Positions 13,717 through 22,584 of a stretch of 64,000 nt of DNA are shown piece by piece. The notes beneath the pieces are model-generated. The model ran no database searches, was not told the DNA's origin, and worked only from the letters and a program-made list of their open reading frames with translations. This DNA is from Neofusicoccum parvum. Its lineage: Eukaryota; Ascomycota; Dothideomycetes; Botryosphaeriales; Botryosphaeriaceae. The DNA lies in NCBI GenBank assembly GCA_020912385.1, contig CP087217.1:930001-994000 (forward strand). The letters are read 5' to 3'. Position 1 is the stretch's first letter. Every line of letters starts with the position of its first letter. The position numbers were made by a program, and so were the translations under genes.

Positions 13717-14033
13717 GACAAAGGCATTGAATATACCCATTTTAGTACTGATTGAGAAGAGGGCGAAGGAGGGTGCGCACGGTCAGAGTGAATGGATTAT
13801 TGCGTGTGTTCCGTATCAAGGCAGGCTTGCTCGACGTCCCTACATCAACACAGGCTCGGCAAACCCCGCCGTGGCCTACATAAGATCCCCCACAGGACAT
13901 CGCCGCCTCTTTGACAAATCCTCTCTACTTCTACCTTCGTAAACCCACTTCCGTCGCCTAAGGGTATATCTTCCACCAACCACGTCCAACTTCCATGCCT
14001 GTAGCTAACGCAGCCGTACAGCACCCTCTCAAG
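13717..14033 (+). promoter_or_regulatory. Promoter and leader of the 14 kb secreted cysteine-rich gene, with 5'UTR intron
   Basis: A TATA-like ACATAAGA lies near 13879. A 5'UTR intron is well supported at 13964-14021 (58 nt): donor GTATAT, branch site GCTAAC at 14004-14009, acceptor ACAG. It removes the ATG at 13995, leaving 14034 as the first ATG, 12 nt after the acceptor. Confidence 0.55.
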
Positions 14034-14432
14034 ATGAAGTCCACGATGACGCGGCTCCTCAAGCTCCTCTTCCTGCTCCTCATCACGCACTACGGCATCC
14101 GCTTCGTTCTCGATCTCGTCGTCGACCACTTCTGCGCTCGCATCATCCCTGCCGTTCACGCCGCGCCTCTCGACAACCCTGATCCCGCCATCTACACCTC
14201 ACACATGCCGGTCATCACTGGCGGCTTCGCCACCACCGCAAGCGATGTTGCCACTGCCACCAGCGCTGTCCTCGAGACCGCTCAGGCCAAGTCCAACGAG
14301 CCCCAGCTGGACCACCGTCACCAGATCTCGGATGACTGCGCTGCGTACTGCAGGAAAGGCTGCGAGGGCAGCACCAACGGCATCTGCTACGAGTGGTGCG
14401 TCTACTTCTGCGCGCGTCGGCCGCCCGCGTAG
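14034..14432 (+). CDS. Small secreted cysteine-rich protein, single six-cysteine unit
   Basis: Single coding exon, 132 residues. Residues 5-44 are a strongly hydrophobic N-terminus (RLLKLLFLLLITHYGIRFVL) ending near VHAAP, best read as a long signal peptide or anchor. A Thr/Ala-rich linker follows. The C-terminal unit has cysteines at 102, 106, 110, 118, 122 and 126, spacing C-x3-C-x3-C-x7-C-x3-C-x3-C, then ARRPPA. This is the same symmetrical spacing found six times in the protein at 38.5-39.7 kb. The start at 14034 is preferred because the 5'UTR intron removes the upstream ATG. I know no named family with this spacing; a secreted effector-like or cell-surface role is inference only. Confidence 0.75.
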   Translation: MKSTMTRLLKLLFLLLITHYGIRFVLDLVVDHFCARIIPAVHAAPLDNPDPAIYTSHMPVITGGFATTASDVATATSAVLETAQAKSNEPQLDHRHQISDDCAAYCRKGCEGSTNGICYEWCVYFCARRPPA

Positions 14433-14684: not shown

Positions 14685-17600
14685 TCACGCGCCCATCTTC
14701 CCCCTCTTCCGGTCCCTCGCCGCCGCTTTCTGCTGCCGCATCCTCCTCTCCTTCCGCCTCCTCTCCTTGCGCGTGAACTCCGTCGCGGCCTTGAACTCCC
14801 TGCCCTCCCTCGTCCGCTGCGCCAGCTGCGCCACCTCGCCCGCCGCCAGCTCGCGGAAAACCAAAAGGTACCTGACCCTGTTTTCGTAATACAGGCCCGC
14901 CTCCTTGAGGGCGTCCGGATTGACCAGACGCCTGTCGAGTTTGGTCCAGCGCGTCGCGCCGTCAGGGTCCTCTGGGGCGCCGGCGGGCGCGTCGATGATC
15001 TTGTAGCCAGACGCGACGTCCGGATCGACATCGGCGTCGTCGTCGGCATCGCTCGCAGCGTCGCCGTCGTCGCCGCCGCCGATGACGGAACCGGTGGGGG
15101 AGAGGGACGGCGAGTCGAGGCCGATGGTCGGGAAGCCGTAACGGCTGGCGCGCGCCTCGGCCTCCTCCCACAGCGCGTCCTCGGCGGTCGCGACGCTGTC
15201 GAGCTCGACGCGGAACAGGTAGATCGGCTTGCCGTCGTCGTTTTCGCCGAGCCCCAGCACGTCGCCGCTCCGGACGATGTAGCCGCGCGAGTCGTGCGGC
15301 GGCAGTGTGTGGGAGTCGTAGTCGTCCGGGTCGGGCAGCCGCACAAGGCGCCGGCCGTTGAGGAACGTGGTGCCCGAGCTGCGGTTGATCTCGAGCATCC
15401 ACAGCTGCTGCTCGGCTTCGATGTAGAAGTCGCAGTGGTTGGCGGTGACGAAGGGCTCAGGCAGGAAGATAGGGGCGCCAGCGGGCCGGTCTTGCTTGCT
15501 GAATGTTGGGTCGGAGCCGATCCTGATTGTCAGGAGGGAGCTCATAGCGTTGGGGTGGGTTCGTGTTTTGATTATGGAGGGCAGATTCCGGCGGTGGCGG
15601 CGCGAGTGCTCGAAGAGCATTCGTGTCTGCTCTTCACTGAGCTCGCGTTGGATGATGATGTGGTCGTGGTCGTCCTGGGACTTTGTTAGCAGAAGCTCTC
15701 TATCTGAGCATGCGACTTGGTGACTCACGTTGTCGAATTCGAATGGAAGGTCGTAGTAGAACAGGGTGTCCAAAGAGAGATGTTTGCGATGAGCCTTGAC
15801 ATAAGTCGGCTTGTAATTCCGCGTTGGGCTATTCGGCCGTGACCTGACTGATCCTCTGGCCTGATTTTCTTGGCCTATCAGGTCCCTCCGGTCAAGCGAG
15901 GTCAGCCCGCTTTCATCGGAATTCTCCAACATGTTGGATGATGGATGGAGGTACACGAGGAAGAGGTTCGGTGCTTTGTCGTTGACGCTCTCCCCTTCAC
16001 AGGTGCTGCAGAGCTCGTGGTAGCAGACAAGACAGTTCGGAGTCTCCATCGGCCTGGCGCGGCATCTGCAGCAAGCCCAAAGCGAAGGTCCGCCGGTCAG
16101 ACGGCTGAGGCTTTCAACTGAGCTGTTCAATCGTGCTGGAGATGGCCTGGTTGGTTTACTGGGTCCTGCGGCGCCAAGTTCCAGGTCGAAAATGCCCTCA
16201 TCTGCCCCTTCATTGGGAGTGCCAACATCGTCATAGCTATCTGGAGATTCCTCTCGGACCTCTCTCTGCGCTTGGAATCCAAGATGGGCCTTGCTGGGAG
16301 GGAAAATCTGCGGAATCAGTGCCTTGTACACAGCCTGATCCTTATCTTTATAGACGCAAAACACGACCTTCTCCAACGTGTCACCTTCTCCTGATTCCAA
16401 GAAGGTACGTGTGGTCTTGAGTGCAATCTCCGCAGCTTCACGGCTAGGAAAGCCGAAGCCACCTGCACTCAAACATGGGAATGCGATACTCTTCAATCCG
16501 CTCTCAGTCGCAAGCTTGAGGCAACTACGATAACAGCTCGCCAGTAGATCCTCCTGGCCGGTAAAAGTAGCGGCTTGGAAGTAGTGTGGCCGGACGGTGT
16601 GGATTATCTTCCGGCACGGAAGGTTGTGTGCATTGGTCATAACTGCCTTTCCCATCTCGCATAGATCGAGCCCTTGGCACTCCTGTAGGAGTCTCGGTCC
16701 AGCGGCTTGGTGAATCCAATAGCTTATCGAGTCTGAAGCACCAGCGTTCAAGCCTGGGGTTGTCCCATTGACGATGGCATCCACGGCAAGCATTGTGATA
16801 TCGTGCTGCAACATCGAAATCTTCTGGTTGATCTCCTCTTTCGGTAACGGCGGGTCAGAGTCCACAATACCAGGGGTTGGGTTTTGCAGCCAGCCATTCA
16901 AGTACAACTCCGAAATACTTAGGATGTCGGAGGTGGTCTTGAGAGCGTAACTAGATCTGGTCTCCTTGAAGAAAACCCTGTCGACTGCACCACTGACATT
17001 CTTGATCTGGCTCACGAGTGGCTGACCCTTTGTTTCCTCAAATCGTACCCTTAGCTTGGTGAAAAACGGTATGCGGCTTCTGAGGACGTTGTTCCCGCGC
17101 CGGAAGTGCTGATGGAACCAGGTGCTGGTTCGTTTTACTTCCAAAGAGCCTTCACTCAGCCTGAACTGCTGGTCGAATTGCTGGCGGAACCCGCATGTAA
17201 TCAAACGCTCTTTAAATGAGGAGAAGGTCTCCAGCGCGAAAAGCGGGAGAACCTCTGTTGCGAACGCTTCTTCGTCGAGGATTTGGAACATGTTTCCATT
17301 TTCGGTCCAAGTGATTATGTCTTTGTGTTCTGGTTTCCCAAGACTCCTGCACAAATCGAGTGAGAAAATGTTCACGAGAGTATCGGAGTATGAAAACAAA
17401 CCTGTTCAGAACTTCCAGAAACCTCTCAACATCGAATCCAACGAGCTGGTCGCTTCGAGATTGAACAGTCTTGCCTGTTTGGTCCTCCTCACCGTTTTCT
17501 ATCTCGAGCCTGAGACCAGGGTGCTGCGACGTGTCGAATGCCGACAAGACGCGTTGTGCATCCTCCAGAGACTTGAATCTTGCATGTCCACGAGATTCAT

Positions 17601-20352
17601 CTTCAGGATCCAAATGAAAGCCTTGATGTACTAATGCGGAAAGCAATGCGGCAGACCTTTTCGTTCCATTGGCCTCGGTCGGCAGATTGGACACTCGTAC
17701 CGTATACGGTCTATCTGATATATCCTCTCTGTCTGAGAATGGCTCTTTCTCCAGCGTTTCTGTTGGCAGGTCGACTGAATATATTTCGAATGTATTTAAA
17801 CCTGCCTCAGGGGGAGCGTCGGCAACACCCAAGTCTGGAGGCGGTCCTCCACCGTGCGTGTTCTCGAAGCGTTCCAGTTCGACTTTGCTTGCATCAGTTA
17901 TGGACTGTAAATCATCTGCTGGGAGCCCAGGCTGTTGTGTGTCTCCACTTCCTTGGCTCGTTTTCACATTCGCGATGAGAGCGTCGATCCTCCAGATCCA
18001 CACTGCAAGCTTTTTGCTGAGAAATTGGGCAGGCTTCTCTTCCATCAGATTAGTTTTATACAGTTCCATCTGAATCTCTATCAGAGCATCCGTGGCTCCC
18101 TGCATGGCCTGCGACACATTTTCGGCAAGGGTGCTGCCGTTGGGGTCGGAAGTGTGAGCGAGAATCGATAGGTTCGAATAAATAGTGAAGACATCATCTC
18201 GCAAGCGCGTAGAAGATCCAGATAGATCCTGACAGAGGAGGTATGTCGCCCAAGCCTCGGTTCGAGCTGTGCCAATCTGAGGGTATAACGATCCGAGAGT
18301 TACTCCTCCCCGCCGGGACTGCCTGAGTTGTTCTGAGACTGACGGGTGCTCAGAAATGGAGGGCAACGATGTGTAGAAGGCAGCGCATACAGTTTCAAGG
18401 TCGATGTGACCACCTTTGGAATGGCGGAACATATCGTTTAGGACGGTGAAGACTTGTGATACCTCTGGTTGAGGGAAAGATGAGCGCAAGTCTGGACGGA
18501 TTTTGAGCCAGTCTTCCTGAGACAACGATCCGTGTTCACTGGAGCGCTCAATATTGTCTAGTAGGGATATTAAGCGGTTTATCATTTCATATGCCGTGGA
18601 AGCAAAATTGAAATTAGCCGAACTGGGATCTGGTCTCCCGCTGTCGTCGTTGTTGGTTGCCGTGTCCAAGGACCAGTGTGAGCTTGCTGCTTGTGATCTC
18701 TCCGACGAGCTACCTGTACCGTTGGATGCAGCAACACTGGCACCAGACTTACTGTCATCCGGGCCAGCAAACTTGGGCAGTGCAAATGAGGCAAACCTTT
18801 CCAGATGGTTGGCGATGTGGTTGTGGAGATTCCCTGCCACGCCCGGGGCTTTGGCATTGACAAAGCAAATTGGACAATACTCCCGAAGGTCGATGGCCGA
18901 CGTCTCGGAGACGCTGATCAATCGTGTTATTTGCATCTCGGTGATATCATTGCCGTGAAAATCTTGCAGGTGATGCCTGATTCCGTCCTGGGAGGAATAT
19001 ACGGAATTCGGGTGGCTGGGGCACCGCCAAACCTTCCTGTGTGCGGAGCTTTCATGCTCAAGCCATTCCCGGCGGCTGCGGAAAAGTTGGTTTGCATCAT
19101 GGCAGTCTTTGTATGTACACACATATGGCTGCAAGTCCTGCAATAGATGGGTCCTGGAACACGGTGAGCCGGAGCGTTTCTCGTGCAAAGGATGTTTCTT
19201 ACTTCCAAGAGCGTGCTCTGCTGTATCGGGCTGGGCAGATCACAAAGCAGTATGGGCACTCAAAGTCTTTCTCCCCATCTGCGGAGGTTGGTGGAGGGGG
19301 AAGGTCGATGCCGTGACCGCCAAGATCAACGGCTGTTGTAGCAACAGATGTGACCGATTGGCTATCAACAGCGTCATCCAGGGTTCTGTGATGTGCGGTT
19401 GCTTCAGTGCCTGAAAGAAGCGTCCTCGGCTGCATCTCACTTGGCGGTGCTCTGAGGTTGATCTTGACGGCGTCTGATACGTGTATCGGGTTCTCGAGGG
19501 GTACTGCAGATGGCTGCTGCTGAGGCCCGTCGTCATTGCCGGTAGGTGAGGTCATTCCTTCTGATATTGACGAGTTTGCAAGCTTGTCCCGATGCTTCTT
19601 CCAGTACTTGAACTGCTGGCGTCTTCTGGTAATGGCTTTGCTGAGTCGTTCAACAAGGAAGGAAACGTCTTCGTCTTTCCGCGTAGGTAGTCCGGTCCTG
19701 AGCTGGGCAAGAGCATCTTCGGTATATCTCTTATCGTAATCCGCATACTGAGTGAAGACATCAACTCCGGTGTCGGGATCGATTTGCCGGTAGGCGGCGG
19801 CCTTCAAGGAGCGCGTCCTCGTGGTCGGACTGCGGATCCGGATGGATAGCCGATAGAGGTTGTTGATGACGTCTATGACTTCGAATAGTCTCTGTTGAAG
19901 CTCGTATCTCGGCCGCTCCTCTTCGCTACTGTTGTCATCTTCAGAATCTTCCGAGGCGCTGTCATCGCTGAAATCCTCCGAACCCGCTTGCTGTTCATAG
20001 GAAAGCCTAGCTCCAGAAACAACCGCCAGAGCTTTAAAACGAGTCAATAATGGGACAGCCGCTCGATTTGCACTCCCGTCGTACCTTCATTGATGTTAGT
20101 TTCGAGCTCCTGCAATAGCTTCAGCACGTTGGACTGCAGCAGTGGGCTGTCTCGGAGGCGGTAGTCAAGCGAGCTGTGCCCCTTTTGCTGAGCGCCGAGA
20201 TTGCCGCTCCAAACTCTGAACCGGCCATATTCGTCCTCGAGGCTCGCTGGAGCGATCAGATCCCGATGTGCGGCATCGCCGCCTTCCAGAGCTGCGGCCA
20301 GAAGACGAAAGCTGCGAGTGCACGCAATCGTGGCGTTCCTGATTGCGGTCAT
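14685..20352 (-). CDS. Giant multidomain protein: C2H2 fingers, RRM-like, HSF-type DNA-binding, macro and FHA domains
   Basis: Five exons (20085-20352, 19203-20031, 17402-19153, 15729-17346, 14685-15680) join in frame to about 1,820 residues. Domains in order: acidic/helical N-terminus of the fungal acuF-like C2H2 type (1-360), with RFRVWSGNLGA and SLDYRLRDSP; C2H2-type zinc-binding region (about 370-495), starting at PYVCTYKDC and ending with a CPICF finger; helical region (about 520-730); RRM-like fold (847-920); HSF-type DNA-binding domain (about 938-1041), with DIITWTENGNMFQI, EVLPLF, FSSFKERL, GFRQ and WFHQHFRRG; macro domain (about 1122-1298), with VDAIVNG, IHQAAGPRL and LSAGGFGFP; zinc cluster C-C-x-C-x9-C-x2-C-x4-C-x2-C (about 1374-1399); FHA domain (about 1538-1649) around NRSSGTTFLNGRRL; and a DUF8035-like WTKLDRRLVNP tail ending in a basic stretch. 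Macro domains bind ADP-ribose and FHA domains bind phosphothreonine, so a nuclear DNA/RNA-linked signalling role is inferred. Intron 15681-15728 is 48 nt and stop-free. Divergent from a DUF7580-like gene. Confidence 0.8.
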
Positions 20353-20880: not shown

Positions 20881-22584
20881 ATGAGCGGCGTAGAACTGGC
20901 AGGCCTGGTCCTGGCCGTACTACCCTTAGTCATCTCGGCACTGGAGGACTACAACGACAGCCTGGATCCAGTGAAAGCATTCGTAAAGTGGGAAAACTAC
21001 CTGCCCCAATACATTCGGAAGCTGCGAAACCAGCACGTCCATTACGAACAAACCCTGCGTCTGCTGCTTGCTCCAATCACCACCGAGTACGAGCTAGCAG
21101 ACATGATCGCAGAACCCCACGGAGAGCTTTGGAAAGACCCGGAAATGGCCCAGAAGCTCAAATACAAGCTGGACGAATCATACGACGCCTATCACCAAAC
21201 GATCAAAGATATCGAGAGGATCATGAAGACTATTGCGGAGAAATTGGATCTCGAACGGGCCACGAATGTCACTCGAAACGAACTCGAGGCCATGCTTGTC
21301 GCAAACGGAAGACCAAAATCCTCTCAGAAGTTTGAGTTCAGGAAACGTGTGAAGTTTTCTATGAGAAGAAAGAAAGTGAAGGGATTACTCGAAGAGCTGG
21401 ACGAATGCAACAAGGAATTGGAACGCTTTACGGAGAAGTCGGAAAAGCTGGAGCCCTACCGGAAGACTTCGAAGCCCTCAATTGCTCAAAAACTGCAAAA
21501 GATTCAAACCTACGCCCGGGTCCTACATTACACCCTTGTGGAAGCTTTTAGCTGCTCCTGCAGAGCTTCGCATTTCACAAACCTCCATCTGGAGCGCCGA
21601 GACCTCAATCCTAGCTCTGGTGGGAGGAGACAAACCTGTGAGCCAGGAACAATTTTCACCGTTTCATTTACAGACAGATCCTCCTCTTGGCTAGTCAAGG
21701 AAGCGCAGATCTGTTTCTCAGAGGACGATGAAGATCTTTCAGCAAGTATGAGCAGTCTCCAAGTGCATCCTCGGCGCAGCGTCAGCTTCTCGCCAACTAC
21801 GCCGCCTCCTTCACCAAAGCCTTCACACTCGCCTATGCGGGCTGACAGTGAAAACCCTCATTACAAAGAAGTGAAGGATCTCTGTTCCGTGGTGCAGACC
21901 TTCAACGATGGGGAAAAGAATTGTATCGGATTCTCCATGGAAAATGGCAAGCTACGAGGAGCATATCCTGTTCCCGTCAATGGTCTCAGGTTCTCGCGCA
22001 AGGCGGAGACGGTCACACTCGAAGACTTGCTGAAAGACAGCGGGAAGACACGGTTGAGCAAGAAAGAGCGCTATACACTTGCTGTCACTGTTGCGTCTTC
22101 AGTCCTGCAGCTGCACTCCTCGCCTTGGATAAGTGACCAATGGACCAAGCAAGACATTATGTTTTACCAAACCGTATCCCAACATCGCTCGATTGACGTA
22201 GACCACCCACATGTCGCACCAAAGCTCATAACACCGTCTGCCGGAACCAATCCCAAAGGCTTCAGCAGCAAGAATGCCACACTCCTTGCTCTCGGCATCA
22301 TACTTTTGGAGCTCTACTTCGGAACGCCTTGTGAGCAGCATATGCCCGAAAATCTATACATGGGCCACGACAAATCCCTGGCGATGCTTTGCACCGCGCA
22401 CCAATGGTACGAGTCCGAACAAGAGGACCTGTCCGCCGCTTTCCAGAATGCCATCGCGCACTGTCTGAGATGCTTTGCAGACCCGAGCGGGAGCCTCCAG
22501 GATTCGGATTTTCTGCAAGCAGCTATCGAGCAGATTGTGCTGCCACTACAAGATGAGCTGTCTCAATTTCTGGGTACAAGATAA
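20881..22584 (+). CDS. DUF7580-like fungal protein with HeLo-like N-terminus and pseudokinase-like C-terminus
   Basis: Single exon, 567 residues. It starts with a hydrophobic helical signature, MSGVELAGLVLAVLPLVIS, of the type found in fungal HeLo-like and STAND N-terminal domains, followed by a coiled, charged helical region to about residue 220. A Ser/Pro-rich linker lies near 300-325. The C-terminal half (about 340-560) resembles the DUF7580 region of fungal proteins, with a kinase-like fold pattern: LEDLLKDS, a helix ending in LHSSPW, then LLALGIILLELYFGTPCEQ. No catalytic HRD or DFG motif is visible, so kinase activity is unlikely. HeLo-like domains can act in membrane-targeting cell death in fungi; that role is inference here. 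The start at 20881 has an AAG-ATG context. Confidence 0.7.
   Translation: MSGVELAGLVLAVLPLVISALEDYNDSLDPVKAFVKWENYLPQYIRKLRNQHVHYEQTLRLLLAPITTEYELADMIAEPHGELWKDPEMAQKLKYKLDESYDAYHQTIKDIERIMKTIAEKLDLERATNVTRNELEAMLVANGRPKSSQKFEFRKRVKFSMRRKKVKGLLEELDECNKELERFTEKSEKLEPYRKTSKPSIAQKLQKIQTYARVLHYTLVEAFSCSCRASHFTNLHLERRDLNPSSGGRRQTCEPGTIFTVSFTDRSSSWLVKEAQICFSEDDEDLSASMSSLQVHPRRSVSFSPTTPPPSPKPSHSPMRADSENPHYKEVKDLCSVVQTFNDGEKNCIGFSMENGKLRGAYPVPVNGLRFSRKAETVTLEDLLKDSGKTRLSKKERYTLAVTVASSVLQLHSSPWISDQWTKQDIMFYQTVSQHRSIDVDHPHVAPKLITPSAGTNPKGFSSKNATLLALGIILLELYFGTPCEQHMPENLYMGHDKSLAMLCTAHQWYESEQEDLSAAFQNAIAHCLRCFADPSGSLQDSDFLQAAIEQIVLPLQDELSQFLGTR

Follow-up and report, generated by a model that had tools for sequence, protein, structure and literature searches.

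A Botryosphaeriaceae version of a Dothideomycetes-wide macro-domain scaffold family as a candidate ADP-ribose reader

The window analyzed here is a 64,000-nucleotide stretch of the Neofusicoccum parvum genome, and all coordinates are positions within it. A gene on its minus strand (14685..20352) is predicted to encode a large protein that joins acuF-type C2H2 fingers, an RRM-like fold, an HSF-type winged helix, a macro domain and an FHA domain in one chain. With about even confidence, the sequence is best read as the Botryosphaeriaceae version of a scaffold family that spans the Dothideomycetes, and its product as a non-catalytic scaffold that would read ADP-ribose. Family members would be large scaffolds in which an acuF-type N-terminal region is combined with C2H2 fingers and with one or two macro domains of MacroD origin. 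The macro domain would use its retained adenine Asp, diphosphate loop and arene to bind mono-ADP-ribose or a free ADP-ribose metabolite, which it would not hydrolyze. The conserved front, the C2H2 block and the zinc ribbon would recruit partners, a role that is an even call, and the RRM-like, HSF-type and FHA folds would serve as structural or protein-docking modules that do not recognize RNA, heat-shock elements or phosphothreonine. This reading draws on direct observations of gene structure, folds, family spread, residue replacements and uneven conservation.

From its N-terminus the protein consists of a helical front (residues 1-240), a C2H2 block (340-495), a helical insert (549-772), the RRM-like fold (845-925), the HSF-type domain (938-1045), the macro domain (1115-1300), a zinc ribbon (1368-1402), a fungal segment termed piece A (1460-1522), the FHA domain (1524-1662), an acidic stretch, a second fungal segment, piece B (1716-1800), and a basic tail. 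An earlier note on this DNA had parsed the C2H2, RRM-like, HSF, macro and FHA domains correctly and in this order, which recurs in Diplodia corticola. It had also joined five exons in phase into one protein, which holds at 1,818 residues (1,820 in the note) with junctions that match orthologs, and the acuF-like C2H2 front end that it named is matched by family profiles and by PF26082 on relatives. Of the HSF, macro and FHA folds that it named, the first two are over the Pfam cut-off and the third is supported by a genome scan and structural matches. Its view of the architecture as unrecognized gave way, as most of the arrangement recurs across Dothideomycetes, with the full order in Diplodia corticola. 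A unique architecture is ruled out by this recurrence in the database search, and no published description of the arrangement was found in full-text literature searches.

On sequence grounds the macro and HSF folds can be called certain, at Pfam scores of 105.3 bits (over the cut-off) and 48.8 bits (cut-off 22), respectively. Structure models were made of exons 3 and 5 only. The FHA fold is well supported: it lies 0.9 bits below the Pfam cut-off in the whole protein and above it in the genome scan, and the structural matches of the exon 5 model are headed by FHA domains. The mean predicted local distance difference test (pLDDT) score of that model is 49.5, rising to about 67-79 in most of the FHA core; a sequence search of the FHA region against solved structures gave no significant match. 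The RRM-like fold is supported mainly by relatives, two of which reach the Pfam RRM_1 cut-off at the equivalent place. The exon 3 model has a mean pLDDT of 49.1 and about 60-78 across the RRM-like part, and its Foldseek list has RRM domains on top (E 0.02) with other ferredoxin-like folds interspersed; the structural-match lists from VIA-align barely cover most of exon 3. The RRM assignment is thus reasonable at the level of the family, and for the window protein alone it is no more than suggestive.

Ligand and contact residues

The MacroD1/2 signature comprises NAAN, GGGxDx3H and an arene (PMC11490716). The closest solved structure to the window macro domain (16296..16853, minus strand, as are all features of this gene) is MACROD1 (2x47, E 5.9e-41). 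In 9/9 Botryosphaeriaceae-type sequences the domain keeps the first Asn of NAAN, the His, the adenine Asp, which presumably contributes to the ligand site, the diphosphate-loop Ser/Gly/Gly and the arene of that loop (F in 7, Y in 2). The catalytic loop has been rewritten in the same sequences: the fourth Asn of NAAN is T (4), S (3) or G (2), the Gly loop and catalytic Asp are replaced too and GGGxDx3H is found in 0/9. In the window protein this loop is two residues longer than that of MACROD1 and holds no Cys of the Cx4HxC loop of Zn-macros. The macro domain is thus very probably non-catalytic, and there is a reasonable likelihood that it has retained ADP-ribose binding, which makes it the likeliest functional part of the protein. 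The simplest history is that an active MacroD domain was captured and then lost its catalysis.

Relatives carry automatic names such as O-acetyl-ADP-ribose deacetylase MACROD1, ADP-ribose phosphatase and kinase, and the first two would make the protein an active ADP-ribose or O-acetyl-ADP-ribose hydrolase, in line with MACROD1 as the closest solved structure and with bacterial MacroD, whose single active-site mutants keep some activity (PMC5413906). However, 9/9 sequences lack the fourth Asn of NAAN together with the Gly loop and catalytic Asp, and with the longer catalytic loop this makes such an enzyme improbable. Among 217 family macro domains aligned, the motif GGxDx3H occurs in one, the first domain of P0024 from Aulographum hederae (NAANETLLGGGGLDGRIH), which has no arene and is grouped by the macro tree with canonical MacroD domains (98/90).

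Human HSF1/2 use an invariant Arg for a bidentate contact with the G of GAA, assisted by a conserved Asn (PMC8379338), and an Arg-to-Ala change in a maize HSF is reported to abolish binding (PMC12251660). The HSF-type domain of the window protein (17061..17439, interrupted by intron 3) has Glu in place of this Arg in its recognition helix. Across the 8/8 sequences that cover the site, the position of the Arg (Arg71 of HSF1) is Glu (2) or Asp (6) and that of the Asn is Ile, Val or Leu. A scan of the host genome gave five HSF matches, the window gene included, and the three others inspected keep FVRQLN. It is therefore highly likely that heat-shock elements are not read by this domain. FHA domains contact phosphopeptides through Arg, Ser and Asn and use Gly and His structurally (PMC4037201). 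In the FHA domain of the family (15156..15572 in the window) the structural Gly and His are kept in 6/6 sequences, Arg and Asn are each found in 0/6 and Ser is replaced by Thr (3) or Ala (3). The Thr could still serve, making this the softest of the losses, and canonical phosphothreonine reading is likely absent. The RRM-like fold (17476..17718) lacks most of the RNP1/RNP2 aromatics typical of RRM domains, with the RNP2 aromatic in 0/6 sequences, the RNP1 position 5 aromatic in 0/6 and a Tyr at RNP1 position 3 in 4/6.

Conservation along the protein is uneven, as measured by the identity of the window protein to the two to five orthologs with enough coverage of each segment. The front is 78-81% identical to four relatives, with the zinc ribbon at 77-83%, piece A at 73-84%, piece B at 73-75%, the macro domain at 70-72% and the C2H2 block at 64-78%. 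The FHA domain stands at 47-55%, the HSF domain at 46-54% and the RRM-like fold at 36-40%, and two linkers at 30-57%.

These data bear on a broader proposal, in which a single chain would integrate several signals, for example during a DNA-damage response, by reading ADP-ribose, phosphothreonine, DNA and RNA. The folds are present, the basic tail is a candidate nuclear localization signal and the genome holds a PARP-domain match and other macro genes. Such an integrator is nonetheless unlikely, as the canonical HSF and FHA contacts are replaced in every covering sequence, the RNP aromatics are mostly missing, the three folds diverge nearly as fast as linkers and HSF is detected in only 7/123 relatives. 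The earlier note had suggested a possible link from ADP-ribose or phosphorylation signals to DNA or RNA. This idea is weakened: the macro domain keeps a plausible ligand site, but the HSF and FHA contact residues are replaced and most RNP aromatics are absent.

Low identity of the RRM, HSF and FHA domains, together with the failure of profiles to find HSF and FHA in most relatives examined, would also fit decaying passengers of a once-functional fusion with no present role. This is similarly improbable, given that open frames are maintained in several species, that the HSF recognition helix is more conserved between species (62-81%) than the whole domain (46-54%) and that an FHA-related domain is also found in the distant Aulographum.

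Several observations count against the preferred reading of an ADP-ribose-reading scaffold with docking folds. The conserved HSF recognition helix may have a new, constrained partner, and a folded domain can read a ligand through new contacts. The diphosphate-loop Thr of the macro domain is Ala in 9/9 Botryosphaeriaceae-type sequences, which amount to about five lineages once near-copies are counted (P0007 is close to the window protein, and P0003/P0009 and P0008/P0010 form pairs). Outside Botryosphaeriaceae, the tandem proteins keep the adenine Asp (98/101 first and 97/100 second domains) but have mostly lost the arene, whose position is Phe in 3/101 first domains (most often Cys) and Leu in 86/100 second domains; the fourth Asn survives in 65/101 first domains, and 94/100 second domains retain the Asp register, the His being lost there. 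The N30A and D40A single mutants of bacterial MacroD are described as retaining reduced activity (PMC5413906), so residue loss is no proof of lost catalysis. The ADP-ribose-reader idea is accordingly strongest for the Botryosphaeriaceae lineage and may not extend to the whole family.

Family spread and history

The first protein search returned Diplodia corticola, Lasiodiplodia hormozganensis, D. intermedia and D. seriata proteins with HSF and macro domains at 48-52% identity, from two genera that we take to belong to Botryosphaeriaceae, along with one vertebrate PARP14-like protein as the best match outside the fungal family. P0002 (Diplodia corticola) is a single annotated protein with the full domain order, and P0003 (Lasiodiplodia hormozganensis) has that order in one annotated protein except for the zinc ribbon, which is missing from the model. 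The series RRM-HSF-macro-FHA is present in one chain in four annotated non-host proteins, two of which also have the full C2H2 block. Among the four Diplodia/Lasiodiplodia models, most of the C2H2 block is missing in 2 and the zinc ribbon in 3; these gaps may stem from gene prediction, because the metagenomic frame P0009, near the Lasiodiplodia protein, has the ribbon. The Macrophomina phaseolina protein P0010 is a partial model with front, C2H2, RRM-like and macro parts and without HSF; HSF and macro do occur together in a single frame in the metagenomic P0008, which is close to P0010 where the two overlap.

A third protein search found 271 proteins, 120 of them listed. The 123 relatives examined (115 new and 8 earlier, fragments included) were scored with profiles cut from the family itself, and as the set was picked by similarity to the first 500 residues of the query, the counts are biased frequencies: C2H2 block 118, macro 116, both together 111, two macro domains 101, front 100, RRM-like 63 (mostly weak), piece B 61, HSF 7 and FHA 5. 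All seven HSF-bearing relatives are Botryosphaeriaceae or metagenomic kin. The relatives include proteins of Glonium and of Alternaria and Parastagonospora, the latter two presumably Pleosporales, and four named members checked taxonomically are Dothideomycetes (Botryosphaeriales, Gloniales, Aulographales and Coniosporium). Profile alignment to the linkers of nine relatives from other Dothideomycetes gave no HSF above 1% probability. An FHA-related domain is found in Aulographum at 95.2% probability (shuffled controls 0.1-0.5%), and the corresponding FHA match in Glonium is not supported at 10.8% (shuffles 0.1-1.5%). Many listed Pleosporales proteins match PH_24 and some RPA_C. In the proteins inspected for position, PH_24 (EVH1-like; P0025, P0041) and an RPA_C-type winged helix (P0041, P0074) lie near the C-terminus, the end that carries FHA in Botryosphaeriaceae, and this suggests repeated domain swapping there.

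In a macro tree of 60 sequences the Botryosphaeriaceae domain forms a group (97/88) with three metagenomic relatives and lies toward the first domains of tandem proteins, away from the second. Profiles find no HSF in one of the three, P0095, in which two RRM-like stretches can be seen by eye. The HSF fold therefore appears to have been acquired at a later point; the FHA-related domain of Aulographum suggests that FHA is older. The host genome (44 Mb, 18 contigs, with the gene on contig C12) has no second full copy of the HSF-macro part, and eleven other loci match the front or C2H2 block. In the acuF-type paralog on contig C6, an acidic linker of roughly 200 residues joins the front and C2H2 to piece B, a layout that suggests insertion of the reader folds between front and tail. 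Piece B (14742..14996) matches the tail of this paralog over 52 aa (52% identity), and piece A (15576..15818, interrupted by intron 4) matches a paralog tail on contig C1 over 56 aa (57% identity). In L049 (1151..2854), a paralog tail of piece A, an in-frame intron-like stretch lies at the place of intron 4, hinting at a shared intron. Pieces A and B as one duplicated domain are not claimed, the statistics between them being weak.

Elsewhere in the genome there is a PARP-domain match (46.7 bits over part of the domain, in a long frame), and there are three further macro-domain genes: a canonical MacroD-type gene on contig C7, one on contig C15 and one of a third type on contig C5. With these genes present, ADP-ribose signals to read probably exist. 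A genome search with PARG_cat_C was uninformative, as it gave no match and its controls likewise gave none. The contig C15 gene (L010, 2588..5041) has a macro domain with the Cx4HxC loop of Zn-macros, the only part reported by Pfam, followed in the same frame by what appears by eye to be a SirTM-like sirtuin half; a fused Zn-macro/SirTM form is described in PMC11490716.

Gene structure, remaining segments and neighbors

The gene comprises five exons joined in phase to 1,818 codons plus stop and four introns, all GT-AG and 49-55 bp long. Exon 1 (20085..20352) encodes the first part of the N-terminal helical region in the acuF-type front and is followed by intron 1 (20032..20084, 53 bp). Exon 2 (19203..20031) holds the remainder of the front and the start of the C2H2 block, and intron 2 (19154..19202, 49 bp) separates it from exon 3 (17402..19153), with the C2H2 block, helical insert, RRM-like fold and start of HSF. 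Intron 3 (17347..17401, 55 bp) precedes exon 4 (15729..17346), with the remainder of HSF, the macro domain, the zinc ribbon and most of piece A. After intron 4 (15675..15728, 54 bp), exon 5 (14685..15674) completes piece A and encodes FHA, the acidic stretch, piece B, the basic tail and the stop. Intron 4 is in frame and stop-free, and the metagenomic frame P0007, 97% identical to the window protein, reads through it, so that a longer retained-intron isoform is possible.

Junctions 1, 3 and 4 align without gaps to 4/4 annotated Diplodia/Lasiodiplodia proteins (P0002-P0005), and junction 2 to both models that cover it (2/4). A fusion artefact of two neighboring genes is rejected on the ortholog models and this junction alignment. 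A single exon runs from the last part of the C2H2 block into the beginning of HSF, another open exon spans HSF from its second turn onward to piece A, and four annotated proteins of other species hold RRM-HSF-macro-FHA in one chain, making two wrongly merged adjacent genes a most improbable explanation.

The front and C2H2 block (18766..19282, interrupted by intron 2) belong to the acuF-type C2H2 family, as family profiles match and PF26082 is precomputed on relatives; the Pfam scan used on the whole protein gave no match for this part of the window protein. The finger Cys and His of the block are invariant across four aligned sequences. The Cys-rich zinc ribbon (WACCRC..CLVCYHELCSTC) lies at 15990..16094. 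The basic C-terminal tail (14694..14768) is conserved in 5/5 relatives inspected and is a candidate nuclear localization signal, which gives a nuclear location a fair degree of probability.

The helical insert (17935..18606) adds 224 residues in frame. It is single copy in the genome, is missing from the ortholog models, has no Pfam match at E 10 and is found by profile in 0/123 relatives. P0095 has a weakly similar stretch at the equivalent position (25.6% over 82 columns, E 0.002 one-to-one, profile probability 18.9%), and a PDB search with this stretch gave no match. The low-confidence model of the insert resembles CC/MLKL four-helix bundles alongside other helical bundles, with all matches below trust level. 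A divergently transcribed neighboring gene (20881-22584, plus strand), about 530 bp from the gene start, has a DUF7580 domain and by eye what we take to be a HeLo-like N-terminus. A self/non-self or cell-death scaffold, with the insert as a four-helix bundle resembling plant CC or MLKL executioner domains beside this DUF7580 gene, is unlikely. On the other side of the gene, a small open reading frame (13962-14432, plus strand) that combines a hydrophobic stretch at the N-terminus with a Cys-rich C-terminus is a candidate small secreted or anchored protein.

Comparison with known systems

Filamentous fungi write and erase ADP-ribose, and no dedicated reader scaffold was found for them in the literature searched. 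Such a family across the Dothideomycetes, its macro domain likely non-catalytic, turns this gap into a testable question. The domain names HSF, FHA and macro would mislead annotation, as relatives are named deacetylase, phosphatase or kinase and the key residues are gone.

Other Dothideomycetes macro proteins share the front, C2H2 block and macro domain with the window protein, and P0002 and P0003 also HSF and FHA in the same order; they differ in that no HSF is detected in named members outside Botryosphaeriaceae and in that 101/123 have two macro domains. MACROD1/2 are the nearest solved structures, and the window macro domain keeps the adenine Asp, most of the diphosphate loop and the arene, whereas the complete NAAN and GGGxDx3H of these enzymes are lost. 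GDAP2 has likewise lost the catalytic residues according to PMC11490716, which describes loss of the arene too; the Botryosphaeriaceae lineage keeps it in 9/9. The HSF-type domain belongs to the same winged-helix family as Hsf1 and Skn7, but has Asp or Glu in place of the base-reading Arg. The likeness to vertebrate PARP9/PARP14 is functional only, in that macro readers and, in related PARPs, RRM-type folds are combined in one large protein (PMC4245714); the window protein has no PARP catalytic domain and the domain order is not common to the two. Tentatively, the family may represent undescribed Dothideomycetes ADP-ribose-reader scaffolds convergent with PARP9/PARP14, in which Botryosphaeriaceae might have captured an HSF-type fold and, through an acidic residue in place of Arg, converted its recognition helix from reading DNA to forming a new protein-docking surface beside a contact-stripped FHA domain.

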